From a virus: a DNA stretch of 27,487 nt. This document shows positions 3,172 through 18,198 of this stretch, piece after piece. A program made the position numbers and the translations under genes. The notes beneath the pieces were generated by a model. The model was not told the origin of the DNA and did not search any database. It worked only from the letters and a program-made list of their open reading frames with translations. The stretch's first letter is position 1; each line of letters opens with the position of its first letter. The stretch spans positions 1 through 27,487 of the IMG/VR virus record IMGVR_UViG_3300020472_000140; one strand, given 5' to 3'.

Positions 3172-6100
3172 ATGTCAGAAAATAACAGAGTCAAAATTAG
3201 TTCAGTTGTTAACAATCAACTTCCTGATTATGTGAGGGGAAATTTCCCTCTTGCTGGAGAATTTTTACAGCAATATTATACTGCCATAGAAAATCAAGGA
3301 TCTACGCTTGATATTCTACAAAATATTGATAAGTATATAAAAATTGATGAATTAACAAATCTTGTAGATTCTACAACTCTGTCTGATAATGTTGGAATAA
3401 CAAATAGTACTATAAATGTTAAATCTACCACTGGATTTCCTAATACTTATGGATTAATTCAGATTGATAATGAAATTATTACATATACTGGAATTACAAC
3501 TAATTCTTTTACTGGGTGTGCGCGAGGATTTAGTGGAATTACATCATATAGAAACGTTAATAAACCTGATGAGCTAGTATTCTCTGAATCAGGTATTTCC
3601 CTCCATTCTTCAGGAGCAGTAGTTAATAATTTAAGTATTAGATTTTTACAAGAATTTTTTAAAAAGGTAAAAAAACAAATTACGCCTGGTTTTGAGGAAA
3701 GAGCTCTTTCTGATGACATTGATAAAAGATTATTCATAAAACAGTCAAAAGATTTTTATTCATCTAAAGGAACTGATCAATCTTTTGAAATTTTATTTCG
3801 TGCGTTATATGGAGAAGATGTAGATATAATAAAACCAAGAGATTTTCTCTTTATTCCTTCAAATTCAGATTATAAGATATCTAAACAAATAGTAGTTGAG
3901 GCTATTGAAGGAGATCCTTTAGATCTTATCAATAGAAACCTATTTCAAGATCCTGTTGCTGGATTACCTAAAGCTACTGCAGCTATAAGTGATATTGAAA
4001 GAATTGTAAGGGATGAAAAAGAGTATTATAGGTTAAGTTTAGATTATGACAAACAAAGTGGTAGATTATTTGATGATTTTTCTATTCACCCCAATACCAA
4101 ATTAGTAGGTTCTGTTTCTGTAGGATCTACTGTTTTAACAGTAGATTCCACTGTTGGTTTTGGAACTACTGGAACTTTAGTTGCTAAGTATCTGACTAAT
4201 AAGTCATCTACCATAAAATACACATCAAAATCATTAAACCAATTTTATGGTTGCACTGGAGTTAATGTAAATCTTAATAGTAAGCAAGATATTAAATTGG
4301 ATGCTTTTGCTTATGGTTATTCTGGATTAGGAACAGCTAATGTAGTCAAAGTTAGAGTAACAGGTGTTTTAGGTAATTTAGATTTAGATTTTAATGTTGC
4401 TAATTATAATGAAATTGGAGATGTTATAGAACCTAGAGGATTAGGAATTAATTCTGCAGATTTAATTACCAAATCTTTACAACCTAACGTTTCTATAACT
4501 TATGATGTTGCATCTTTTGATCTTGTAGATTCCTCCAACTTTACATATCAATTAAATCTTTTTGATCCTCATAGTTTCATTATAGGAGATAGAGCTCTTA
4601 TTAATGATGTAGAATGCACTATCATAGGTTTGATTAGTTCTAAGGAAGTTTTAGTAAAAGGTGCAGGAGAATTATCTGCCAATGTAGATTATAAAATTCA
4701 AAGATTAATATCTAAAGCTAATCTATCTAATTATCCTGATGCAAATATATTTACTACAAATGTTCAAAATTCTTACATAGACGATGATGAAGAATATACT
4801 TGTGTTTATATTGCTTCTTCTTCCATTCCAGATTATCTTGATGAAGGTTTAGATATTAGACAAACAGACCTTCCATTTACTGGTGCATTTGCTGAAAGTA
4901 CTAATATTACTATTCCTAATCATGGACTAATTAGTGGTGAAAAAGTAAGATTTGTATCTGGAGGAGGTTCATTAGATATAAAAGAGGAAGAATATTTTGT
5001 TAAAAAGGTAGATATTGATACTATTAAAATTGCTAGAAGTTCTTCTAACGTAGATAATGATATTTTTGTATCATTTAGTGGAGGTGGCACAAATAATAAA
5101 TTTAAATTAGCAAAATTTGCTAACAAATCTATACAATCTCAAAAATTACTGAGAAAAATTAAACTCCCAATCAGTAGCATTTCAGAAACAACTGTACCTG
5201 GAAAAATTGGTATATTGGTAAATGGAGTTGAAATTCTTAATTATAAATCATCTGATATTATTCATTATGGTTCATTATCTGAAATAGATGTTACTAGTGG
5301 AGGAAAAAATTATGATATAATAAATCCTCCTATTCTTACTCTTTCAGATAAGACTGGAATTGGATGTTCTGCCATTTGTGAAGTAGAAGGAAATATAGAG
5401 AGAATTGATGTAGTTGATGGTGGATTTGATTATCTAACTACACCAACTTTAAAAATAGATGGTGGAAATGGTAAAGGTTGTGTTGCATTTGCTAATTTAA
5501 AATTAATAGATCATTCTGTAGAGTTTGATTCTACACAACTTGGTGGGTTAGTAAATATCACTGATAATATTATAGGATTCTCTACATTTCATAAATTTAA
5601 AGATGGAGAACTTGTAATTTATAATCCAGAAGGTCAAACTGCTATAGCTGGATTGACTACAGGTGCTGCATATTATTGTTGTGTTAAAAGTGCAACTACA
5701 GTAACTTTGCATAAAAAATATGATGATTCTATAGATGGATTTTCACCTGTAGATTTAACTGGTTATGGTGCAGGTATTCATCAGTTTGATTGCAATTCTC
5801 AAAAGAGAATTATTAGTTCTGTTAGTGTTGCTAGTTCTGGAATTGGATATAGGAATAGATTAACCACAGTTACTTCATCTGGAATTAACACTTCTAATAA
5901 TATAATTAACATTAAAGATCATGGTTATAGTAATGGAGATAAAATAAGATATGATACTAAATCCACAACTCCTATCTCTGGACTTTCTACTCAAACTGAC
6001 TATTTTGTTTCTAAAATAGATAGTGGTTCTTTTAGACTATCTGAGGTTGGAATAGGATCTACAGCTCAAAATTTCTATTTACAAAATAAAGAATATATCA

Positions 6101-9100
6101 ATTTATTTTCTGGTGGTACTGGTATTCATGAATTTAATTATCCTCCCATAACAATAACAGTTGATGGTAATATAGGAGTTTCTACGTTTAGTGGTCAAAA
6201 TTTTAATGCAACATTAAGACCTATTGCTAGGGGATCTATAAAATCAGTTTATATTCCATATGGTGGTGTTGGTTATGGGTCATCTGAAATTATCAATTAT
6301 AACAGACAACCAGAATTTACTTTAAATAAGGGAAAAGATGCTCAATTAATTCCTATAGTATCTCATGATGGAAAAATAAAATCAGTAGTAATTAAGAATC
6401 AGGGTTCAGGATATAATTCTCCTCCAGAATTAGTTGTAAATGGAAATGGAAAAGGAACTGTTCTAGTACCAATATTAAAATCAGGAACCATAGATTCTGT
6501 AGTAGTATCTCATACTGGAATTGGATATAGTTCTTCACGTACAAATATTACAGTTACTCCAAATGGAGATGGTGCTAACTTATATTCTAAACCAAAAACA
6601 TGGACAATTAATAGTGTAGAAAGATTGATACAGAATAATCAGATTACATCTGATGATGGAGTAGTAAGTGAAGGATCTAGAGATGAATATGGTTTAGAAT
6701 ATTCTCATTTATATGTTCCTAGAAAATTAAGACAATCTGTTAATGTTAAGAAAGATCTAGGTGATAAAGAAGTTTTTGTTCCAGATTTACGTTTAGAGGG
6801 AGATATTGAACAAGATTCTATAAATCATTCTCCTATTATTGGATGGTCATATGATGGATCTCCAATTTATGGTCCATATGGTTATTCTGATAATGGTGGA
6901 GGAGAAGTAAAAATTCTTAAATCTGGATATTCTGTTTCTATATCATCAGAGAGACCTAATCCACTTACATCAGCAGGTGAAGAAATATATGAAAAAGGAT
7001 TCTTTGTTGAAGATTATGTGTATGAAGAAGGTAATGAATTAGATCAACATAATGGTAGATTTTGTAAAACTCCAGACTATCCTAATGGAGTATACGCTTA
7101 TTTTGCTAATATTAACCCAGATGTTAGAGATTCTGAAGGAGCATTTAAAAATTATAGACGACCACAATTCCCATATTTTATAGGTAATTCCTATAAGTCT
7201 AAATCTATTGATTACAACTTTTCTTTTAATTCCAATCAAGATGATATTGATATTAATAACACTGGTTTAATAAGAAATACTAGTGTTTATAATTTCTTAT
7301 TTAATAAATCTGTTTATGATTTTTTAGTAGATCCAAATTCTATTAAAAAACAAAAAACCTTCATAACTTCAACATCTACTGGATCAGTATCTAAGAGTGT
7401 AGGAATAAAAACAGGAGGTGATAATTATAAAGTAAATGATGTTATAGAATTTGATAATTCTGAAACTAGTGGATCTGGAATTCGTGCTGCTGTAAAAGAT
7501 ATTAAAGGAAAAACCATAACTGATATTAGTCTATCTAATACTACTTTTGAAAATGTAGAATTTGTTCCTCACGGAAAACCAGGTGAAATTGTAGGATATA
7601 CTACATCTCCTCATAATTTATTTTTATCAGAATATCTTACCATTAGTGGATTAAGTACTAATGGATTTACTAACAATCAAACAGTAACTGCTGGAGTAAC
7701 TACAAATAGATTTTCTTTAGATGTTGGAATAAGTTCTGCTGGTGCTACTGGTCTTGTTACTTTCTTTAATGTTAATGGTAGAATTTCAGATACATTTAAA
7801 GTTAGACCTAATGATGTTTTAGGTATAGGAACTGAGCAAGTAAAGGTATTAAATGTAGATTTGTATGATAGTAGACTTAGAGTTTTGAGAAATCACAATT
7901 CTACTATAGGATCTGCTCATACTGCAACTTCTAATTTAGAAACTAAACCAAGAAATTTTATTTTTAAAAATAATACTAGCAATATTGGTAAGAATCTTAC
8001 ATATAATAGGGAATTATATTTTAATCCTGCAGATTCTATAGCATTAGGAACTTCGTTTGGAGTTGGTATTGGTTCTACTGTAGTATTTTCTAATCCAGGA
8101 ACTGGAATAAGTGAAATATTTATTCCTACCAAATCCATTTATTTTAGAGATCATGGTTTAAAATTAGGAGATCAATTAACTTATAAGACTAATGATGGAA
8201 CTGCTTTGGGGGTTTCAACTGATGGTACTATGACCTTTACCCTCTCTAATGATCAAACTTTATTTGCTGCACCTATCAGTCGGGATTTGATTGGTATAGC
8301 TACTGCTAGAGTTGGATTAGGAGCTACTGGAGTATTCATAGGTATTAACAGCACTACTAATATTAGCACTTTATTTTTTACTGGAATTGGAACTGGTGTA
8401 AAACATAGTTTTAAAACAAACTATAATAATGTTTTAAGTGGTACAGTCACTAGAACTCTAGCAACAGTATCAACTGCTTCTACTCATGGTCTTAAGGATG
8501 ATGATGTTGTAAATCTTTCTGTTTTGAGTGGAGTAACCACTACTATAAATGTGGCATATAATGATTTTAATAGAAGATTAGTCATTAATCCTAGAACTTA
8601 TATTAAAGCAGGTATCAATACATCAGATAATACTATTAATATATCTGATCATGGTTATATTAGCGGACAGAAAGTTATTTCTACTGCTACAACTTCACCA
8701 GGAGGATTAGTAGATAATGGAATTTATTATGTTGCAGTTGTAGATAAAGATAAAATTAAATTATGCAATCAATATTACCAATCCTTAAAGGTTATTCCTG
8801 ATACAATCAATATCACTAGTGCTCAAGATGGTACTATTTCACCTATTAACCCTAAAATAGTTACACAAAAAAATCAGGAAATTAAATTTGATCTTTCTGA
8901 TTCTAGTTTATCATTTAGTGATAATGAAGTTCTATACAGTGCATTTGATTTTGCTCTTTATAATGACAAACTATTAACTAATAGATTTTATTCTTCATCA
9001 TTGACAGATACTTTTAATTTAACTTCATCTGGTAAAATTGGTATTGATACCACTGCAAATGTAACAATCAAAAATGTAGAACAAATTTCTAAAGTATTGT

Positions 9101-12100
9101 ATTATAATTTAATACCAATAAATGGTACTTTAAATAAAATAGTTAAACAAGAAATTGTTACAGATAATTTAAATATTAATAATTATAATACTTTAGATTT
9201 AAAAATAAATCCTTTAAATTTTTCTTATCCTGTAGTTAGTGTAGGAACTACAACTTTTAGTTTTTCCGCTATAAAACCTTCTCCAAAACTTCAATATAAT
9301 GAAACAGATGGTGATTTTTCTTATACCACTACTAGCAATAATGTATATGGACCTATAAATTCAGTTAATGTAATAAATGTGGGGCATGGGTATAGATCTC
9401 TTCCAGGAATTACTACTATCACATCTGATTTAGGTAATGGTGCTATATTAGAACTTTTTGGTTCTGATGTTGGTAGAATTCTTGATGTTGATATTCAAGA
9501 TATTGGATTTGATTATTCATCAGATAGAAGTCTTAAACCAGAATCTCAAATTCCTCAATTAATAAAAGTTGATGCTTTAGAATCTCTTAAAAAAATTGGT
9601 ATTACTTCATCTGGAAACAATTATCTAGAATCTCCTGGATTAGTTGTTTTAGATGGAACAACTCAGAAAGAGGTTGATGTTGATTTAGATTATGAATTAG
9701 GAGATGAGGAAGTTACTATTTTAAAGAATACCAAATCTTTAAACAATGTTACCCCAATAATTCTTCCAACTAGCAATTCTAATGGAATTAAAATTAGTGG
9801 AATGGATTTTGATTATGGTACAAAGTTAGTTACTGTAACCATAGGAGCTACATTTACAACTCTTGCAGACTTCCCATTTGAAATTGGTAAAAAAGTGATG
9901 ATTGAGGGAGTGAGTGTTGGGGTTGGTACTACTGGAATTGGTTATAACTCTGCAAGTTATGATTATAGATTATTTAAGGTTCTATCAACAGATGCTAATA
10001 TAGGTGGTGCTGCTGGATCTATTAGTTATAGTTTATCTGGTATTATTCCTGAAGGAAAAATTGCAGGAACATTTAAACCTGCATCTTCTGCTGGAAGAAT
10101 TATTAAGGAAGAAGATTTTCCAATTTTTGATATTTCTTTAAAAGGAAATAAATTTGATATTGGAGAAACTATAGTTTCGCATAAAGCTGTAGGAGTTCTT
10201 CAATCTTTCAATACAACAAACTCATTTTTAAAAATATCATCACCTCAAGATTATGAAGTAGGAGATACTGTTACTGGAGAATCTTCTGGAGTAAAAGGAA
10301 CTATTACTCAGGTTGTGGGATATAGATCTTTTTATGATGTAGAGTCTTCCTCTATAGTTAAAGAAGGTTGGCAAGATGATAGTGGATTTTTAAATACTGA
10401 TAATCAAAGACTATTTGATAGTGATTATTATCAATATTTTTCATATGGTATTAAATCTGAAGTTCCATTTGAAAAATGGGAAAATGCAGTATCATCTTTA
10501 AATCATACTGCAGGATTTAAACAATTTAGTGATTTAGTTATAAGAGAAGAAATTAGTGTAGGAATAAACACTATACAGACAGAAAGTAATTTTGATATTG
10601 TTACAGATTTAGTATCCATAATGGATATGAATAGTGTATTTGATTTTGATCTTGTTAGAGAAAAAACATTAAGAATAGATGATAAAGTAATTTCTGATCA
10701 GGTAATCTTTGAATCTAGAAGAATTAAAGATTTTACTTCTTCAATAGGTAATAGAGTATTGAACATTGATGATGTGAGTCCAACTTTTAATAACACTGAA
10801 AGAATAGATAAGTTTTCTGCTGTTGATATTTTTGAACTTCCAAGTACAAGATCTAGAAAATATATTACTTTTGTTCGTGATAGAAGATTTACTAAAGAAA
10901 GACAGGTTATGCTGGTTTCTTTAATTCATAATAATAAGGGTAATATGCTCTTAAACCAATATGGTACTATAGCCACTAATACAGATGGTGGAGAATTTAC
11001 CTCAGAATTGGGATCTTTTGATTTAGATATTAGTGGTGAAAATGGAAGATTATTATTCTTCCCCAAGAAGTTTCAAGTTAATAATTATGATGTTACATCT
11101 ATTGCATATAACATCTCAGATAGCGTAGCTGGAATAGGTTCTACTGATCTTGGTTCTATATGCGAAATTGTAAGTGGAACCACAGAGATACCATTAGGAA
11201 TTTCAACATCCCATTCAATTGTATCACTAGCTTCTACTTATAGAGCAGCTAAGATTTTAGTTTCATATGCAGCCACTGATAAGTCTTATTTTGAATATGA
11301 AGAATTAACTATGATCCATAATGGATCAGAAATTGATTTGATGGAATATGGACAATTAACATCAGACAATTTAGGTAGTGGATCTGGAACTCCTGGACTT
11401 GGTACTTATAGTGCTTCTTTTGTAGGATCTCGTATTAGTATTGATGTACATCCTAATGTAGCTACTGCTACCTCATATGTTGCCAATACATTATCTATTG
11501 ATGTGGCAACACATGCTGTATCTGGAATTGGTACAACTACATTACAAACAGGATTATTTGGTTCTAGAAGAACTTCTATATCTTCAAGTGGATCTCCATC
11601 TGCTACTACTGTAGCAACATATGATAATGAATCATATTCAGCTGCTTATTATCTTGCAGTTGTTACTAACACCACTGATAGTCATTATGCAGTATCTGAG
11701 TTGATTGTAATAGATGATGGTACAACATCATATCTTACTGAATATGGAAATGTAGAAACATCTGCACCAATTGGAACATTTGATGCTGAAGTGGATGAAA
11801 CTGATACTAATATAACATTTACTCCAATAGCAAATAAAAATGTTGTAGTTCAAGTATACCAAAATGCAATTGGAATAAAGGATGATGACAATACAGAAGT
11901 TCAAATTGATTTAGAAAATGCTAGTATTGATTCTGGTGAAGGAACTTATAGTGGTACTGGCGCTGATATAGCAAGAGCTTTTGAACTCACTCATAGGCAA
12001 AATCCAATATTTAAGAGGAATTTTGTAGGAGGAGCATCTACAGTAGTCAGTGCTCTTAGAGATACTGTTAGAATTCCAGATCATTATTTTGTAACTGGTG

Positions 12101-15100
12101 AAGAGTTAACTTATAGGTATTTGGGAGCAGGAACTACTTCTGCTATTGGTATTAGTACTCAAACTATATCTGGATATGGAAGCACAGATAAACTTCCAGA
12201 TAAAGTGTATGCTATTAAAGTTAATGATTCTACATTAAAGTTAGCATCCACTGCACAAAATGCATTAAAGACTGTTCCTATACATTTAGATATTAGTGCT
12301 GTTGGTGTAGGTACTTCTCATTCATTTACTTCTAAGAAACAAAATTCAAGATGTATTATTAGTATTGATAATGTAATTCAACAACCTATAGTTGCAACAT
12401 CAGTAACTACAGTTCTATCTGCAGCAGCAGATTCTGCTGCTGATAAGATAAAAATTTCTGGTATTACTTCTGTTACTGGTGGAGATCTATTAAAGATAGA
12501 TGATGAGATTATGAAGGTAAACTCCGTTGGAGTAGGAGATACAAATATTCTTTTAGTATCTAGACCTTGGATGGGATCAGCTTTAACTGCACATACTAGT
12601 GGATCTTTGGTTACAAAGATTGAAGGTAATTATAATATTGTTGATAATACTATTAATTTCTATGCTGCACCTGCAGGACTAGTTCCACTTTCAACTTCTT
12701 CTAATGAACCAGATGAAACAGACTTTGTTGGAATAGCGACTCATTCAACATTTAATGGAAGATCTTTCATGAGATCTGGAATTAAAGATACTACTGTTGA
12801 ACCTTATTCTAAGAATTACATCTTTGATGATGTTTCTGCTAATTTTACAGGTCTTACTACAGAGTTTACTCTTAAGCAAGATGGAAGCAATGTAGCAGGT
12901 TTCTCTACTAGTAATGCTATAGTCTTGGTTAATCAAGTATTCCAATCTCCTAAGAGAACTGGAGATGAGGTAACCGTTACTGGAGATTTCACTCTTATTG
13001 AAGATACTGATGCAGTAGGTGTTACTACTATTCAATTTACAGGTTCTACAAGTTCTGTTGCTTCTGATCCAAATACAGCAAATGTTCCTTTGGGTGGTAT
13101 TATAGTTTCTGTTGGATCTACAGAAGGTTTTGGATATCAACCTTTAGTGGCTGCTGGTGGTACTGCTGTTGTTTCTGGGTTGGGAACTATTAGTTCTATT
13201 AGTATTGGAAATAGTGGTTCTGGTTATAGACCAGGAGTGCAATCTGTGGTTAATGTAGGAGTTCAAACATTAAGTACTGGAGTCCCAGCTATTGAGTTTA
13301 TTGGTACTGCTGCAATTAGTAATGGTAATATTGTAAGTGTTGCAGTTACTAATCCTGGTACTGGATATACATCAACTAATCCTCCATTAGTTGTTATAGA
13401 TGAACCATTATCTTATGATAATATGCCATTGTTCTATACTTCATCTTCTAGTGGAGTTGGATCAGAAGCAACTGCAAATATAGTTGTTGGACAAGGTTCT
13501 AGTGTTATTGACTTCCAAATTATTAAGGAAGGATATGGTTATGGTGATTCAGGAGTTCTAACAGTAGGAGTGGGTGGTAGTGTAGGTATTCCAACTACTG
13601 TTGATTATAGCCCTTCTAGACAATTTGAACTTACCATTCAAGAAACTATTAGTGATACTTTTGCTGCATGGACTGTTGGTGATTTCCAAGTATTTGATCC
13701 TTTAGATTCTTTATTTGATGGCCAAACTCTTGCTTTCGCTTTAAAAATTGATGATGAGCAACAAACCATTAATACTGAAGTAGGATCTCCTATTGATGTA
13801 GAATATACACTTCTAGTGTTTATTAATAATATCCTTCAGGTTCCTCAGATTGGATATGAATTTAAAGGTGGTAGTTATCTTACATTTAAAGAAGCACCAA
13901 AATCAGGAGATACTTCTAAGATTTTATTCTATAAAGGAACTGGTTCAGTTGATACATCTCTTGTTGATGTTTTAGAAACTGTTAAAAAAGGTGATGAACT
14001 TAGATTGTATGATGATAATATTGAATTTGAGCAGGGTCCTAGAATAGTAACTGCTGTAAATGCAGCTGATAATGCTACTACTAATCCATATGATAGTGTT
14101 GGTATCAATACTGATGAAACTTTTGAAAGATCCATTACATGGTCAAGGCAACTTACTGATAAAGTTATAGATGGTAATGAAGTTACTAAAGATAGACCAC
14201 ATTACGAACCTTTAATTTATCCTACTAGTAATATAATTTCACCAGTATCAGCAAGTTCTACAATAGCTTATGTAGAAAGTGCAAGAACTTTCTTTGATAA
14301 TTCTTATGAAAATTATGATGGTCAAGGAACTGTACAAATCATATCTCAAGATGATTTGGTAGGAGCAGCAGCCACTGCAATAGTTTCTGGATTTGGAACT
14401 ATTAGTTCATTTGTAATTTCTAATTCTGGTATGGGATATACAGGCACTGCTGATGTTTCTATAGAACAACCTGTTGGATTTGGAACTACTCAAAGAGCAA
14501 CTGCCACTGCTGCAATGGATAGTGATATATTAGAATCTATTAGTCTAGATTCAGTTGGAAGTGGTTATACTACTGCTTCTCCACCTGCAGTTCTTATAGG
14601 AGCTCCTCAAGCATCTAGTGCTGTTGAGAAGGTTACTTCTGTTACTTATTCTGGAGATTTTGGAACAGTAGTTGGATTTGGTACAACTACTGTAGGTGGT
14701 AGAAATAGAATGATTTTTGATATGCATATTCCTTTAAATTCTCCTTTAAGAGATACTACAATAACAGGAACTGCAGTTACTTTGAGCTCTTTAACTGTTA
14801 ATGATTTCTTTATTGTAAATAATTCCAATGTTGGAAATGCTAATACTTCACTGAAGTCGTTTAATACTAATGGTATAACTACTACAGGAATATGTACTCA
14901 ATTCGTTGATAATGTTTACCAAGTAGTTGATGCTAATACTGTGAGTATTGCTAATACTGTTATTGGATTATCAACTGTAGGAGCAGCAACAACTTATATT
15001 AGAAGAGTATTTGTAAATATAGATAAATTTACATCTGACTCATTTGATTCATCTATATTAAAATTTGATTCCACTTCAACTAAATTTGATTCTAGTGGTA

Positions 15101-15291
15101 TAGGTGTTACTTATAGTGGAAATATATACCATCAACCTTTCTTTGGTGAATATAGTTTTGGTAAAGTTGGATTAGGAGTAAGAGCTGAACCAAGATCATT
15201 CAAGTTCTATGGAGATGGTGGAACTGGTGGGATATCCACTTCAGCATATATACAAAGGTTCAATCCTTTGAGATATACTGAATACGACTAA
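3172..15291 (+). CDS. 7: giant gp7-like baseplate wedge / structural protein, 4039 aa
   Basis: This single uninterrupted 12.1 kb frame encodes a 4039-residue protein directly after gp6, the place of gene 7 in T4. The first 230 or so residues contain SKDFYSSKGTDQSFEILFRA (residues 192-211) and LYGEDVDI, which line up with DFYSTKG...LFKVLYNEEVEI near the C-terminus of T4 gp7 (1032 aa) as I remember it. Most of the remainder is beta-rich, Gly/Ser/Thr/Asn-rich modular sequence: about 14 G-x-G-Y modules, several DHGY/NHG modules, StvGF modules, a YHYH-like domain (about 1220-1340) and three tandem repeats of about 130 residues (about 2560-2910). GWQDDSGFLN (from 2399) and a C-terminal FGEYSFGKVGLG block are features I recall in marine phage homologues. 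There is no signal peptide or membrane segment. The role is inferred as wedge core plus extended peripheral arms. The gp7 link rests on the N-terminal match and synteny. Confidence 0.8.
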   Translation: MSENNRVKISSVVNNQLPDYVRGNFPLAGEFLQQYYTAIENQGSTLDILQNIDKYIKIDELTNLVDSTTLSDNVGITNSTINVKSTTGFPNTYGLIQIDNEIITYTGITTNSFTGCARGFSGITSYRNVNKPDELVFSESGISLHSSGAVVNNLSIRFLQEFFKKVKKQITPGFEERALSDDIDKRLFIKQSKDFYSSKGTDQSFEILFRALYGEDVDIIKPRDFLFIPSNSDYKISKQIVVEAIEGDPLDLINRNLFQDPVAGLPKATAAISDIERIVRDEKEYYRLSLDYDKQSGRLFDDFSIHPNTKLVGSVSVGSTVLTVDSTVGFGTTGTLVAKYLTNKSSTIKYTSKSLNQFYGCTGVNVNLNSKQDIKLDAFAYGYSGLGTANVVKVRVTGVLGNLDLDFNVANYNEIGDVIEPRGLGINSADLITKSLQPNVSITYDVASFDLVDSSNFTYQLNLFDPHSFIIGDRALINDVECTIIGLISSKEVLVKGAGELSANVDYKIQRLISKANLSNYPDANIFTTNVQNSYIDDDEEYTCVYIASSSIPDYLDEGLDIRQTDLPFTGAFAESTNITIPNHGLISGEKVRFVSGGGSLDIKEEEYFVKKVDIDTIKIARSSSNVDNDIFVSFSGGGTNNKFKLAKFANKSIQSQKLLRKIKLPISSISETTVPGKIGILVNGVEILNYKSSDIIHYGSLSEIDVTSGGKNYDIINPPILTLSDKTGIGCSAICEVEGNIERIDVVDGGFDYLTTPTLKIDGGNGKGCVAFANLKLIDHSVEFDSTQLGGLVNITDNIIGFSTFHKFKDGELVIYNPEGQTAIAGLTTGAAYYCCVKSATTVTLHKKYDDSIDGFSPVDLTGYGAGIHQFDCNSQKRIISSVSVASSGIGYRNRLTTVTSSGINTSNNIINIKDHGYSNGDKIRYDTKSTTPISGLSTQTDYFVSKIDSGSFRLSEVGIGSTAQNFYLQNKEYINLFSGGTGIHEFNYPPITITVDGNIGVSTFSGQNFNATLRPIARGSIKSVYIPYGGVGYGSSEIINYNRQPEFTLNKGKDAQLIPIVSHDGKIKSVVIKNQGSGYNSPPELVVNGNGKGTVLVPILKSGTIDSVVVSHTGIGYSSSRTNITVTPNGDGANLYSKPKTWTINSVERLIQNNQITSDDGVVSEGSRDEYGLEYSHLYVPRKLRQSVNVKKDLGDKEVFVPDLRLEGDIEQDSINHSPIIGWSYDGSPIYGPYGYSDNGGGEVKILKSGYSVSISSERPNPLTSAGEEIYEKGFFVEDYVYEEGNELDQHNGRFCKTPDYPNGVYAYFANINPDVRDSEGAFKNYRRPQFPYFIGNSYKSKSIDYNFSFNSNQDDIDINNTGLIRNTSVYNFLFNKSVYDFLVDPNSIKKQKTFITSTSTGSVSKSVGIKTGGDNYKVNDVIEFDNSETSGSGIRAAVKDIKGKTITDISLSNTTFENVEFVPHGKPGEIVGYTTSPHNLFLSEYLTISGLSTNGFTNNQTVTAGVTTNRFSLDVGISSAGATGLVTFFNVNGRISDTFKVRPNDVLGIGTEQVKVLNVDLYDSRLRVLRNHNSTIGSAHTATSNLETKPRNFIFKNNTSNIGKNLTYNRELYFNPADSIALGTSFGVGIGSTVVFSNPGTGISEIFIPTKSIYFRDHGLKLGDQLTYKTNDGTALGVSTDGTMTFTLSNDQTLFAAPISRDLIGIATARVGLGATGVFIGINSTTNISTLFFTGIGTGVKHSFKTNYNNVLSGTVTRTLATVSTASTHGLKDDDVVNLSVLSGVTTTINVAYNDFNRRLVINPRTYIKAGINTSDNTINISDHGYISGQKVISTATTSPGGLVDNGIYYVAVVDKDKIKLCNQYYQSLKVIPDTINITSAQDGTISPINPKIVTQKNQEIKFDLSDSSLSFSDNEVLYSAFDFALYNDKLLTNRFYSSSLTDTFNLTSSGKIGIDTTANVTIKNVEQISKVLYYNLIPINGTLNKIVKQEIVTDNLNINNYNTLDLKINPLNFSYPVVSVGTTTFSFSAIKPSPKLQYNETDGDFSYTTTSNNVYGPINSVNVINVGHGYRSLPGITTITSDLGNGAILELFGSDVGRILDVDIQDIGFDYSSDRSLKPESQIPQLIKVDALESLKKIGITSSGNNYLESPGLVVLDGTTQKEVDVDLDYELGDEEVTILKNTKSLNNVTPIILPTSNSNGIKISGMDFDYGTKLVTVTIGATFTTLADFPFEIGKKVMIEGVSVGVGTTGIGYNSASYDYRLFKVLSTDANIGGAAGSISYSLSGIIPEGKIAGTFKPASSAGRIIKEEDFPIFDISLKGNKFDIGETIVSHKAVGVLQSFNTTNSFLKISSPQDYEVGDTVTGESSGVKGTITQVVGYRSFYDVESSSIVKEGWQDDSGFLNTDNQRLFDSDYYQYFSYGIKSEVPFEKWENAVSSLNHTAGFKQFSDLVIREEISVGINTIQTESNFDIVTDLVSIMDMNSVFDFDLVREKTLRIDDKVISDQVIFESRRIKDFTSSIGNRVLNIDDVSPTFNNTERIDKFSAVDIFELPSTRSRKYITFVRDRRFTKERQVMLVSLIHNNKGNMLLNQYGTIATNTDGGEFTSELGSFDLDISGENGRLLFFPKKFQVNNYDVTSIAYNISDSVAGIGSTDLGSICEIVSGTTEIPLGISTSHSIVSLASTYRAAKILVSYAATDKSYFEYEELTMIHNGSEIDLMEYGQLTSDNLGSGSGTPGLGTYSASFVGSRISIDVHPNVATATSYVANTLSIDVATHAVSGIGTTTLQTGLFGSRRTSISSSGSPSATTVATYDNESYSAAYYLAVVTNTTDSHYAVSELIVIDDGTTSYLTEYGNVETSAPIGTFDAEVDETDTNITFTPIANKNVVVQVYQNAIGIKDDDNTEVQIDLENASIDSGEGTYSGTGADIARAFELTHRQNPIFKRNFVGGASTVVSALRDTVRIPDHYFVTGEELTYRYLGAGTTSAIGISTQTISGYGSTDKLPDKVYAIKVNDSTLKLASTAQNALKTVPIHLDISAVGVGTSHSFTSKKQNSRCIISIDNVIQQPIVATSVTTVLSAAADSAADKIKISGITSVTGGDLLKIDDEIMKVNSVGVGDTNILLVSRPWMGSALTAHTSGSLVTKIEGNYNIVDNTINFYAAPAGLVPLSTSSNEPDETDFVGIATHSTFNGRSFMRSGIKDTTVEPYSKNYIFDDVSANFTGLTTEFTLKQDGSNVAGFSTSNAIVLVNQVFQSPKRTGDEVTVTGDFTLIEDTDAVGVTTIQFTGSTSSVASDPNTANVPLGGIIVSVGSTEGFGYQPLVAAGGTAVVSGLGTISSISIGNSGSGYRPGVQSVVNVGVQTLSTGVPAIEFIGTAAISNGNIVSVAVTNPGTGYTSTNPPLVVIDEPLSYDNMPLFYTSSSSGVGSEATANIVVGQGSSVIDFQIIKEGYGYGDSGVLTVGVGGSVGIPTTVDYSPSRQFELTIQETISDTFAAWTVGDFQVFDPLDSLFDGQTLAFALKIDDEQQTINTEVGSPIDVEYTLLVFINNILQVPQIGYEFKGGSYLTFKEAPKSGDTSKILFYKGTGSVDTSLVDVLETVKKGDELRLYDDNIEFEQGPRIVTAVNAADNATTNPYDSVGINTDETFERSITWSRQLTDKVIDGNEVTKDRPHYEPLIYPTSNIISPVSASSTIAYVESARTFFDNSYENYDGQGTVQIISQDDLVGAAATAIVSGFGTISSFVISNSGMGYTGTADVSIEQPVGFGTTQRATATAAMDSDILESISLDSVGSGYTTASPPAVLIGAPQASSAVEKVTSVTYSGDFGTVVGFGTTTVGGRNRMIFDMHIPLNSPLRDTTITGTAVTLSSLTVNDFFIVNNSNVGNANTSLKSFNTNGITTTGICTQFVDNVYQVVDANTVSIANTVIGLSTVGAATTYIRRVFVNIDKFTSDSFDSSILKFDSTSTKFDSSGIGVTYSGNIYHQPFFGEYSFGKVGLGVRAEPRSFKFYGDGGTGGISTSAYIQRFNPLRYTEYD
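6832..7200 (+). other. YHYH-like domain within the giant gp7-like protein
   Basis: Residues about 1220-1343 contain HSPIIGWSYDGSPIYGPYGY, then HNGRFCKTPDYPNGVYAYF and PQFPYFIG. The order of GWxYDGxPIYGPYGY, NGRFxxTPxYPxGxYxYF and a closing aromatic P-Y-F element is that of the YHYH family, found in secreted bacterial proteins and in marine phage structural proteins. In the phage form PYFIG stands where others have the YHYH tetrad. The biochemical role is unknown. It is the most clearly bounded globular domain in the giant protein. Confidence 0.65.
10852..11905 (+). repeat. three tandem ~130-residue domain repeats in the giant protein
   Basis: Three units can be aligned by eye. The first landmark is LIHNNKGNMLLNQYGTI (from base 10918), MIHNGSEIDLMEYGQL (from 11311) and VIDDGTTSYLTEYGNV (from 11707), giving periods of about 130 and 132 residues. 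Each is followed by a second landmark, LGSFDLDI, LGTYSASF and IGTFDAEV, that leads into a strand ending in Pro. The DNA is diverged, so these are old protein-level duplications and not recent DNA repeats. Confidence 0.75.
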
Positions 15292-15315: not shown

Positions 15316-16599
15316 ATGGCAAAACTGGGCATAAGCACTGGATCACAGCCAAATGATGGAACAGGTGATACCTTACTGTCTGGTGCTGAAAAGATAAATG
15401 AAAATTTTGATGAAGTTTATACTTTATGTGGAGATGGAACTAATTTAGCTCCAGGAATTGTAACGGCAATTGCTGCTGGATCTAATATAAGTATTAGTAC
15501 TGCTTTTGGGCAAGTTACTGTTACTGCTCTTGAGACAACTGGTATATCTTCTTATTGGAACTTAAATTCAACAGGAATAAACACTGTAGGAAGAAATGTT
15601 GGTATAGGAACAACCACAGCTGTGGCTGGATTAACAGTTCTTGGTGGAGGAAGAATTAGTGGATTTCTTACAGTAACTGATGGTTTAGTGGTCAGTGCTG
15701 GATCAAGGATTATAGGAGAGACTAGTATTATAGGTGGATTGCGAGCTACAGGTATAACTACTTTCACTTCCAATAGTGTTAATGCAGTTCAATTCAATGT
15801 AAGTGGTGTTTCTACTTTTGCTAGTTCTAAAACCTCCACAGGATTTACAACTAATACAACAAATACCAATCTTAATGTAACTGGTGTTTCTACTTTTGCT
15901 AGTTCTAAAACTTCCACAGGATTTACAACTAATACAACAAATACTAATCTTACAGTAACTGGTATTACAACCATTACTAATGGTACAGGTAATATTCTTT
16001 TTGGTTTTCAAGGAGGTACTACTGCTCCTAGAATAACTTTAAGCAATGTTGCTGGTAGTGTTGGAGGACAAATTCAACAGAATGTTGTTAGTGGTACTCT
16101 TACTATGAGTGCTGATACTGATATAGTAATTACTCCAACTAGAAATTTATCTCTTCAGGCTAATCTTCAGGCAACTAAAGGAATTACTGTTACTGGGGTA
16201 GGAACATTTTCAGAGTCTATAACCACTGCTGGATTATGTACTGCTGGTGAGTATGGTGGTCCCACTGGTGGACGTTGGCAAGTTGGTGCTTCTGGCACTG
16301 CTCATTATACCTTTACTGGTCCTGGATTTGGAGGAACAGTAACTAGTGATCCAACTCTATATCTTGCTAGAGGACAAACTTATTATTTTAATAATACTTC
16401 TACTGGTCAACTTAGAATACAAACAGGTGCTAATGGATCTGTAAGTAGTCAATGGAATGTTGGTGTCACTAACAATGATGCTGACCAAAATGTTCAGTTG
16501 CAATTTGAAGTTCCTTATAGTGCTCCTAACACTCTTTATTATCAAGCTACTAACTTTAATACTATGGGTGGTAGTATTGTAATTTATCCATCTATATAA
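15316..16599 (+). CDS. fibre-like virion structural protein with cupredoxin-like C-terminus, 427 aa
   Basis: The N-terminus (residues 1-40) has the NDGTGDTLLSGAEKINENFD element that is common at the start of phage fibre and tail-adhesin proteins. A shaft follows, with repeats of the GVSTF / GITTF type (about 75-310), including two almost identical 26-residue units. The last 83 residues (from DPTLYLARG at 345) resemble the cupredoxin-like domain found at the ends of many marine phage structural proteins: a TYYF strand, a GVTNN turn, LYYQ and MGGSIVIYP. The usual metal-binding His, Cys and His of that pattern are absent here (Gln365, Ala411, Phe414), while Met417 remains. No strong ribosome binding site is visible. 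It lies between the gp7-like and gp8-like genes, a place with no counterpart in T4. It is probably a trimeric baseplate-attached fibre; this is inference. Confidence 0.75.
   Translation: MAKLGISTGSQPNDGTGDTLLSGAEKINENFDEVYTLCGDGTNLAPGIVTAIAAGSNISISTAFGQVTVTALETTGISSYWNLNSTGINTVGRNVGIGTTTAVAGLTVLGGGRISGFLTVTDGLVVSAGSRIIGETSIIGGLRATGITTFTSNSVNAVQFNVSGVSTFASSKTSTGFTTNTTNTNLNVTGVSTFASSKTSTGFTTNTTNTNLTVTGITTITNGTGNILFGFQGGTTAPRITLSNVAGSVGGQIQQNVVSGTLTMSADTDIVITPTRNLSLQANLQATKGITVTGVGTFSESITTAGLCTAGEYGGPTGGRWQVGASGTAHYTFTGPGFGGTVTSDPTLYLARGQTYYFNNTSTGQLRIQTGANGSVSSQWNVGVTNNDADQNVQLQFEVPYSAPNTLYYQATNFNTMGGSIVIYPSI
15805..15960 (+). repeat. two tandem 78-bp repeats in fibre shaft
   Basis: Units 15805-15882 and 15883-15960 differ at only four bases by my count. 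Each encodes 26 residues beginning GVSTFASSKTSTGFTTN. A third, decayed unit begins with GITTI at 15961. In-frame tandem repeats of this kind allow a fibre shaft to change length by recombination or slippage. Confidence 0.9.
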
Positions 16600-16629: not shown

Positions 16630-18198
16630 ATGGCTGCCATTATAACTGATCAACTTAGAATATTGAATGCGAAGAATTTTGTGTCTGCTGCAACTTCTTC
16701 AGTTAATTCTTATTATTCTTTTGTTGGTTTACCTAATGCTACTAGTTATTCCTCTACATGGAATGCTAATCCTCCTTCCCCAAAAGATTGTTTTGATCAG
16801 GAAGATGATTATTGGGATACTATGGTAGCGTTGAAGAAGATTACAACTTCTGATATACGTAGAATGGTGAAAAAGAACACTTGGACTTCAGGTGTAACTT
16901 ATGATATGTATAGAAGTGATATTAGTAGAACCAATATAGCAAAACCATCTGGTGCAACTAGTTTAGCTGCATCAAAATATTTTATAGTAAATGAAGATTT
17001 TAAAGTTTATATTTGTCTTCAGAATGGAACAAATCCAGAAAATACTTCTGGTAGACCATCTTTAGATCAACCTACCTTTACAGATCTTGAACCTAAAGCA
17101 GCAGGTAATAGTGGTGATGGATATGTTTGGAAATATCTTTATACTATTAAACCATCTGAAATTACCAAATTTGATTCTACTCAGTTTATTCCAGTTCCAG
17201 ATGATTGGGGAACTAGTGTAGAAAATGCTCCAGTAAGAGATAATGCATCTAGTAGTGGCCAATTAAAAATTGTTACTGTTATTAATAGAGGATCTGGAAT
17301 AGGAACTGCTAATAGAACCTATACAGCAGTTCCTATCAATGGAGATGGTAGTGGAGCGGAAGCAACTATAGTTATTAATAATGATGCAAAAGTAGAATCT
17401 GTAGATATTTCTAAAGGTGGAAGTGGTTATACTTATGGTACTTTAGATTTAGCATCTGGTGGGGTTCCTGATGGAACCACTGCTCCCGTGTTTAATGTTA
17501 TAGTTCCACCTCAAGGTGGTCATGGAGCAGATATTTATAGAGAATTGTGCTCAAGTAATGTTTTAATGTATTCTAGAATTGAAAATGATGCTGCAAATCC
17601 TGATTTTATTACAGGAAATCAGATAGCTAGAATAGGAATTGTTGAGAATCCAGAAGCTTATGATTCTACTTCAAATCTTGAACTTTCTAAATCTAGTGCT
17701 CTTTATGCTTTAAAATTGACTGGAGCTGGTCATACTAATGCTACCTTTAATTTAGATGGTGAATTTACTCAAACTATTGGTGTGGGATCTACTGCTGTTG
17801 GTAGAGTTGCTTCTTATGATCAAGCTACAGGTGTTTTAAAATATTGGCAAGATAAAAGTTTAGTTGGATTTAATAGCAATGGAACTTTAAGAACAGACCC
17901 TACTTATGGATTTGTTCTTAATAGATTTACAGCAAATCCATCTAGTGGAGGAAATGTTAATATTGCCAGCAACGAAAGTACTCTAGGAATAGATACTAGT
18001 TTTGGAAGTTCTGGAAATCCTGGTATAAGTACAGTAATAAATAATAGAACATATTATCTTGGCCAGAGTTTTATTCAGGGAGTATCTAATCCTGAAGTTA
18101 AGAAGTACTCTGGAAATATAATTTATATTGATAATAGACCTTCTATTACTAGGTCTTCTAACCAAAGAGAAGATATCAAAGTCATTTTGCAATTCTAA
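16630..18198 (+). CDS. 8: baseplate wedge subunit gp8-like, 522 aa
   Basis: The N-terminal half follows T4 gp8: residues 1-60 resemble its opening, with YYSFVGLP and a W-x-x-NPPSP segment; residues 58-72 contain a DYWDTMVALKKI segment like DMWTHMMGTVKV; and SGDGYVWKYLYTI (161-173) corresponds to GDGYVWEYLFEIP in T4 gp8, the strongest single match. T4 gp8 has 334 residues. The extra length here falls largely in the C-terminal half, which includes G-x-G-Y type modules (SRGSGI-like near 220, KGGSGYTYG at 262-270) of the kind seen in the giant neighbours. In T4, gp8 is a dimer on the outer side of the wedge, bound to gp7 and gp10. Only six bases separate it from the next gene. Confidence 0.85.
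   Translation: MAAIITDQLRILNAKNFVSAATSSVNSYYSFVGLPNATSYSSTWNANPPSPKDCFDQEDDYWDTMVALKKITTSDIRRMVKKNTWTSGVTYDMYRSDISRTNIAKPSGATSLAASKYFIVNEDFKVYICLQNGTNPENTSGRPSLDQPTFTDLEPKAAGNSGDGYVWKYLYTIKPSEITKFDSTQFIPVPDDWGTSVENAPVRDNASSSGQLKIVTVINRGSGIGTANRTYTAVPINGDGSGAEATIVINNDAKVESVDISKGGSGYTYGTLDLASGGVPDGTTAPVFNVIVPPQGGHGADIYRELCSSNVLMYSRIENDAANPDFITGNQIARIGIVENPEAYDSTSNLELSKSSALYALKLTGAGHTNATFNLDGEFTQTIGVGSTAVGRVASYDQATGVLKYWQDKSLVGFNSNGTLRTDPTYGFVLNRFTANPSSGGNVNIASNESTLGIDTSFGSSGNPGISTVINNRTYYLGQSFIQGVSNPEVKKYSGNIIYIDNRPSITRSSNQREDIKVILQF

Follow-up and report, generated by a model that had tools for sequence, protein, structure and literature searches.

Closest described systems

The copper loop of amicyanin has the form C-x2-H-x2-M, and the first histidine of the HPxHxHG motif of multicopper oxidases is a type 1 copper ligand. 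Copper-free cupredoxins are already known: the receptor-binding domain of ephrin has the cupredoxin fold, has lost copper by substitutions at the ligand positions and binds protein (PMC6485061). In phage T4, gp9 forms a trimer: it attaches to gp7 by its N-terminus, and the long tail fibre sits on its C-terminal domain (PMC3004832).

The stretch of DNA analysed here (hereafter the window) comprises 27,487 bases and is a single IMG/VR virus record. A gp9-like protein encoded in it ends in a domain that shares with the type 1 cupredoxins (amicyanin, plastocyanin, pseudoazurin, rusticyanin) a predicted fold and, in its phage relatives, the C-x2-H-x2-M spacing; unlike them, the window copy lacks the Cys and both His, and the domain belongs to a virion protein. 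The first His of the relatives lies in an HPF motif, which resembles multicopper oxidases more than it does the PHN motif found in small cupredoxins. Ephrin is alike in having a cupredoxin-fold domain with substituted ligand positions, but it is an animal signalling protein, and no close sequence relation to the phage tip is claimed. The T4 gp9 socket for the long tail fibre shares the N-terminal domain family and the gene neighbourhood, whereas its C-terminal domain has no sequence match to the cupredoxin tip and is absent from the Foldseek matches listed for the tip.

Gene setting and domain layout

The gp9-like gene and its parts are as follows.

15316..16599, + strand: gp9-like baseplate wedge/tail fibre connector, 427 aa (phrog_677, Pfam T4_gp9_10_N and gene order)
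15331..15540, + strand: N-terminal anchor, T4 gp9/gp10 N-terminal domain, residues 6–75 (Pfam PF07880; phmmer)
15541..16251, + strand: beta-rich repetitive shaft, residues 76–312 (alignment of six sister gp9s)
15796..15963, + strand: tandem repeat in the shaft, 78-nt (26-aa) period, 2.2 copies (Tandem Repeats Finder)
16252..16596, + strand: predicted C-terminal cupredoxin-fold domain, residues 313–427 (AlphaFold2, Foldseek, family alignment)

The open reading frame matches phrog_677 (baseplate wedge tail fiber protein connector; 3.1e-38) and Pfam T4_gp9_10_N (1.8e-7); the PF07880 score of 31.8 bits exceeds the cut-off of 25, which identifies a gp9/gp10 N-terminal domain. Searched with phmmer against T4 chains, the protein finds gp10 (E 5.8e-5) and gp9 (E 0.059). 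The gene order in the window is gp25 (647), gp6 (1049), a gp7-like baseplate wedge giant (4039 aa, 3172–15291), the gp9-like gene, gp8 (16630) and a structural protein of 2723 aa (18205). The gp9-like gene thus adjoins the genes of both wedge proteins, gp7 and gp8, as expected of a gp9 connector, an order shared by RB11-B and P-TIM68. The nearest isolates for gp8 are Kyanoviridae and similar cyanophages, at 60–66% identity. By its domain matches and neighbours, the frame is assigned as the T4 gp9-like baseplate-wedge/tail-fibre connector of a cyanophage-like myovirus. By analogy with T4 gp9, it would be a trimer.

An earlier note, made from the letters of the window, had described a fibre tip at 16253–16596. 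The domain is real, well above what chance would give, and is C-terminal here, although its first base is 16252 (the earlier start is one base out of frame), and the protein is a gp9-type connector between baseplate wedge and fibre, not the tip of a long fibre. The same note's view that the fold is cupredoxin-like was borne out by structure prediction (see below).

The whole protein is matched by 121 phage records and the C-terminal domain alone by 296. The shaft varies strongly in length and sequence among close relatives, as seen in the alignment of six sister gp9s. The copy number of the 78-nt repeat and the next shaft segment differ in sister viruses that are near-identical at both ends.

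Two observations concern the neighbouring genes. The gp7-like giant contains a YHYH domain (PF14240, E 6.6e-20; window 6811–7116, residues 1214–1315). In addition, one segment of phrog_460 (head closure Hc2) is matched both by gp8 (16630–18198, residues 203–269) and by the 4039-aa protein (residues 1065–1133), which suggests that the two share a small beta module.

Predicted fold and relation to cupredoxins

AlphaFold2 models the window domain with eight strands (mean pLDDT 90.0, pTM 0.83). Foldseek matches of the model in the PDB are dominated by cupredoxins (probability 0.99–1.00), with modest TM-scores of 0.4–0.6. The best of them is a three-domain nitrite reductase (E 9.5e-6), with rusticyanin, plastocyanin, pseudoazurin with an amicyanin loop, amicyanin and multicopper oxidases further down; the list also holds SO1698, SufI and coagulation factor V, none of which carries electrons by copper. 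A ligand-keeping relative, L008, gives a similar list and a pLDDT of 92.9. The alignment behind the predictions (67 rows) includes ligand-keepers and may draw the model toward the family fold, so the two models are not independent of each other. As modelled, the window domain is a Greek-key beta-sandwich of about eight strands that matches solved cupredoxins, which places it in the cupredoxin superfamily.

At the level of sequence, the relatives carry His-Pro-Phe followed by Cys-x2-His-x2-Met, the latter with amicyanin spacing. A search of the PDB with the family profile finds amicyanin (E 4.8e-5), followed by a nitrite reductase with an amicyanin loop, plastocyanin and pseudoazurin, and the Cys, His and Met of the C-terminal loop of the phage profile land on the copper ligands of amicyanin. 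The first His (His1) is placed less directly. In sequence alignments it falls two residues before the corresponding His of amicyanin and plastocyanin, so its placing rests on its loss together with the other ligands and on a weak local profile match between the HPF stretch and the type 1 His of multicopper oxidases (P 0.003); this match is confined to the HPF stretch, and global hhalign of the family against multicopper oxidase domains gave no match. Copper binding by the ligand-keeping relatives is putative.

Pfam and PHROGs gave no cupredoxin family above cut-off for the tip. In a mixed alignment, PF00127 gave weak matches to three of the sequences (best E 0.02), and it gave none to the window itself. 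A single-sequence search of the PDB with the window protein returned matches to the gp9/gp10 N-terminus plus one marginal match (E 0.57). Since such a search misses the cupredoxin relation, the family profile is needed to see it.

Ligand columns in the window copy

The columns that correspond to the copper site are located as follows.

16405..16407, + strand: codon of Gly364, His1 ligand column; Ala364 in L003–L007 (HMM alignment, codon table)
16408..16410, + strand: codon of Gln365, column of the conserved Pro of HPF (family alignment)
16546..16548, + strand: codon of Ala411, Cys ligand column (HMM alignment, codon table)
16555..16557, + strand: codon of Phe414, second His (His2) ligand column (HMM alignment, codon table)
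16564..16566, + strand: codon of Met417, axial Met column, kept (HMM alignment, codon table)

Type 1 copper proteins, which are blue or green with copper bound, have a site of two His, a Cys and an axial Met; with Gly364, Ala411, Phe414 and Met417 in these columns, the window copy falls outside this definition. Leu366 takes the Phe position of HPF. Residue 364 is Gly in the window and Ala in most sister viruses (L003–L007). The register of residues 364 and 365 hinges on the placing of a one-residue gap, and neither register brings a His, a Cys or another good ligand nearby.

Most of what the earlier note had said about this site agrees with the family alignment. Its letters at 365, 411, 414 and 417 are those of the translation, and the change of Cys to Ala411 and of the second His to Phe414, with Met417 retained, is confirmed; the column it gave to the first His, Gln365, shifts to Gly364. 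The ligand pattern that it ascribed to marine phage relatives is the one whose profile aligns with amicyanin, and the loss of three strong ligands with the Met kept is found in the translation, the family alignment and the census alike. Its suggestion that the fold is kept without the ligands agrees with purifying selection on the domain. Its statement that marine phage proteins end in this domain applies to about half of the ligand-keeping copies; the other half are internal to long proteins.

Ligands are kept or lost together

Viral contigs and phage records were scanned for the domain, yielding 376 distinct sequences, of which 362 have a residue in each of the four columns. His1, Cys and His2 are present together in 316 of the 362 and absent together in 46; no mixed copy was found. 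Some of the scans were biased by design (one required Cys-His and one Ala), and for this reason two scans with ligand-blind search words were counted apart: they gave 146 copies with all three ligands, 9 with none and, again, no mixed ones. The His1 column was selected by no scan.

Six groups can be told apart among the ligand-less copies: the window group, the FPF group, YNF (L441, L465), L037/L366, L065/L309 and L363. At His1, Cys and His2 the window group has Gly/Ala, Ala and Phe. The large FPF group has Phe, Ala and Val/Thr/Ile and occurs in fibres of ~630–1240 aa. Its members in fibres of ~800 aa (e.g., Synechococcus phage RN05-S and L034) resemble the window copy in having lost the same three ligands, in the change of Cys to Ala and in the retained Met, but differ in His1 to Phe, in His2 to Val/Thr/Ile, in the gene concerned and in the position of the domain, which is internal rather than C-terminal. 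The Met is kept in five of the six groups, with the reservation that the search word for L441/L465 required Met and that the YYQA...MGG pattern scan by design finds only losses retaining it. Because of this retention, the Met probably also serves packing. The all-or-none pattern would mark His, Cys and His as residues of a metal site, and Met as a residue of the fold as well.

In a tree of 129 rows with the ligand columns removed, the ligand state changes six times, and it changes five times in a tree from which the ligand loops were removed entirely, together with one highly divergent row; the domain tree is built on few columns and leaves many forks open. The window branches from within the ligand-keepers, and its end branch, at 0.72, is long beside the median of 0.23 for end branches. 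Constraining it to group with the FPF copies comes at a cost of 18.6 log units, and at p-AU 0.079 this grouping is not formally rejected. There are four to five independent pairs, all concordant for His1–Cys and His1–His2, too few for a significant sign test. Judging from the aligned sequences, similar all-at-once loss has occurred in several other marine phage fibre lineages.

One locus in the collection holds both states: in L065, a 696-aa protein (ORF at 3224) carries two adjacent degenerate ligand-less copies at residues 309–484 (DPL...STI and EPI...SSA), and the locus also encodes intact copies.

Conservation of the ligand-less tip

Ten columns are conserved at ≥85% in the ligand-keepers. 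The window retains the five non-ligand ones and the Met; its losses are exactly His1, the Pro of HPF, Cys and His2. Pooled over the domain, pN/pS is 0.16 among the sisters and similar, at 0.12, in a ligand-keeping group. Between the window and L005 the domain shows five nonsynonymous and no synonymous differences, which are small numbers. The tip is 96–98% identical among the sisters and, since the shaft changes in length and sequence among these same viruses, it is the conserved part of the protein. The sequence evidence indicates a domain that still works and whose ligands were lost selectively, rather than one in decay. Random decay of the tip was ruled out by the pN/pS of 0.16 and the retained fold residues.

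Proposed course of the loss and alternatives

We consider it probable that the tip is a cupredoxin domain whose ligands were lost together and which now acts as a metal-independent binding or attachment module. Residues 313–427 would be the cupredoxin-fold end of a gp9-like connector, descended from a widespread marine phage domain with a type-1-copper-like site (His, Cys, His and Met, with C-x2-H-x2-M). Where the ligands are kept, a metal would join the His strand and the Cys-His-Met loop. In the lineage leading to the window and its sisters, the changes of His1 to Gly/Ala364, Cys to Ala411 and His2 to Phe414 and the loss of the HPF Pro would have come together, with the fold kept. The former metal pocket may be filled by Phe414 beside the small Gly/Ala364 and Ala411; the FPF group would have arrived at the reverse solution, with Phe at the place of His1. 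By analogy with T4 gp9, we picture the N-terminal domain docking on the baseplate wedge and the variable beta shaft spacing the tip, which may hold a fibre or touch the cell as a protein–protein or receptor-attachment module. Metal-independent binding or attachment at the end of the gp9 shaft is the most likely role, with ephrin as the known precedent, and we infer both this role and the plugging of the pocket.

The rival with the most weight, though still unlikely, is that the family never held copper and that His-Cys-His-Met, lost in the window lineage, either bound zinc or iron in a structural role or served packing. Our literature search found no paper showing copper on any phage copy, and the Met kept in five of six ligand-less groups implies that at least this residue packs. 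However, the spacing and the alignment of Cys, His and Met agree with amicyanin and plastocyanin, and the strict co-retention of His, Cys and His suits a metal site better than packing. It is very unlikely that the tip still binds metal at a changed site, through Met417, Gln365 and nearby Asn or Tyr. In favour of this, Met417 remains, as does the entire scaffold, all sisters share Gln365, and Gln is a possible weak copper ligand; against it, none of the four positions has Cys or His, Phe stands at His2 and Gly/Ala at His1, and ligand-less groups elsewhere replace the same three residues by other non-ligand ones. We give hardly any credence to a domain decaying under relaxed selection after the loss of an unneeded function. 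The long branch to the window would fit it, as would the dispensability of the tip in relatives (RN05-S has a gp9 without it, and in S-SM2 no gp9 is annotated between gp7 and gp8); against it stand the near-identity of the sister tips beside a varying shaft, the low pN/pS and the retention of the conserved fold residues.

The reading of a ligand-less but working cupredoxin tip has a possible wider form, which we put forward tentatively and regard as somewhat doubtful: the virion fibres and baseplate connectors of marine tailed phages may harbour a large family of cupredoxin domains that bind copper and have gone unrecognised, with the metal site kept or dropped as a unit, and the window gp9 may be one of several independent copper-free derivatives whose pocket became a binding surface or a packed core. 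The literature search found no paper on this domain in phages, nor on a family of virion cupredoxins in which the ligands are lost all or none. If the relatives hold copper, marine phages would display metalloprotein modules on their tails, which bears on virion–host and trace-metal interaction. The strict all-or-none behaviour of the three ligands makes the question testable, since gp9 tips with and without the ligands can be matched at one gene position.

Occurrence in the gp9 position and in other proteins

Ligand-keeping gp9s lie between the gp7-like and gp8 genes in RB11-B, P-TIM68, L054 and L042. Among the collected proteins with a gp9-type start, as judged by a simple motif test, the site is kept in 31 and lost in 5, all five belonging to the window group. 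The slot between gp7 and gp8 is itself variable: the gp9 of RN05-S (L511) lacks the cupredoxin tip, and S-SM2 (L509) has no annotated gene there. The nearest relatives of the tip alone (L008–L014, 55–60%) sit in other gene settings, so the domain moves from one protein to another. RB11-B has, besides its ligand-keeping gp9 tip, a second copy of the domain in a 782-aa protein; this copy is very probably ligand-less, given that its score and open-frame length equal those of the FPF copy of RN05-S.

The domain is also matched in two marine bacterial MAGs, 11 times in G003 (via L474) and 6 times in G001 (via L470), either as cellular genes or in phage contigs binned with them, and some of these matches lie in very long proteins. 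A Prochlorococcus single-cell genome (L487) contains a 148-aa frame with SHLFYIK...YFCTSHQSM that resembles a free-standing member of the family.
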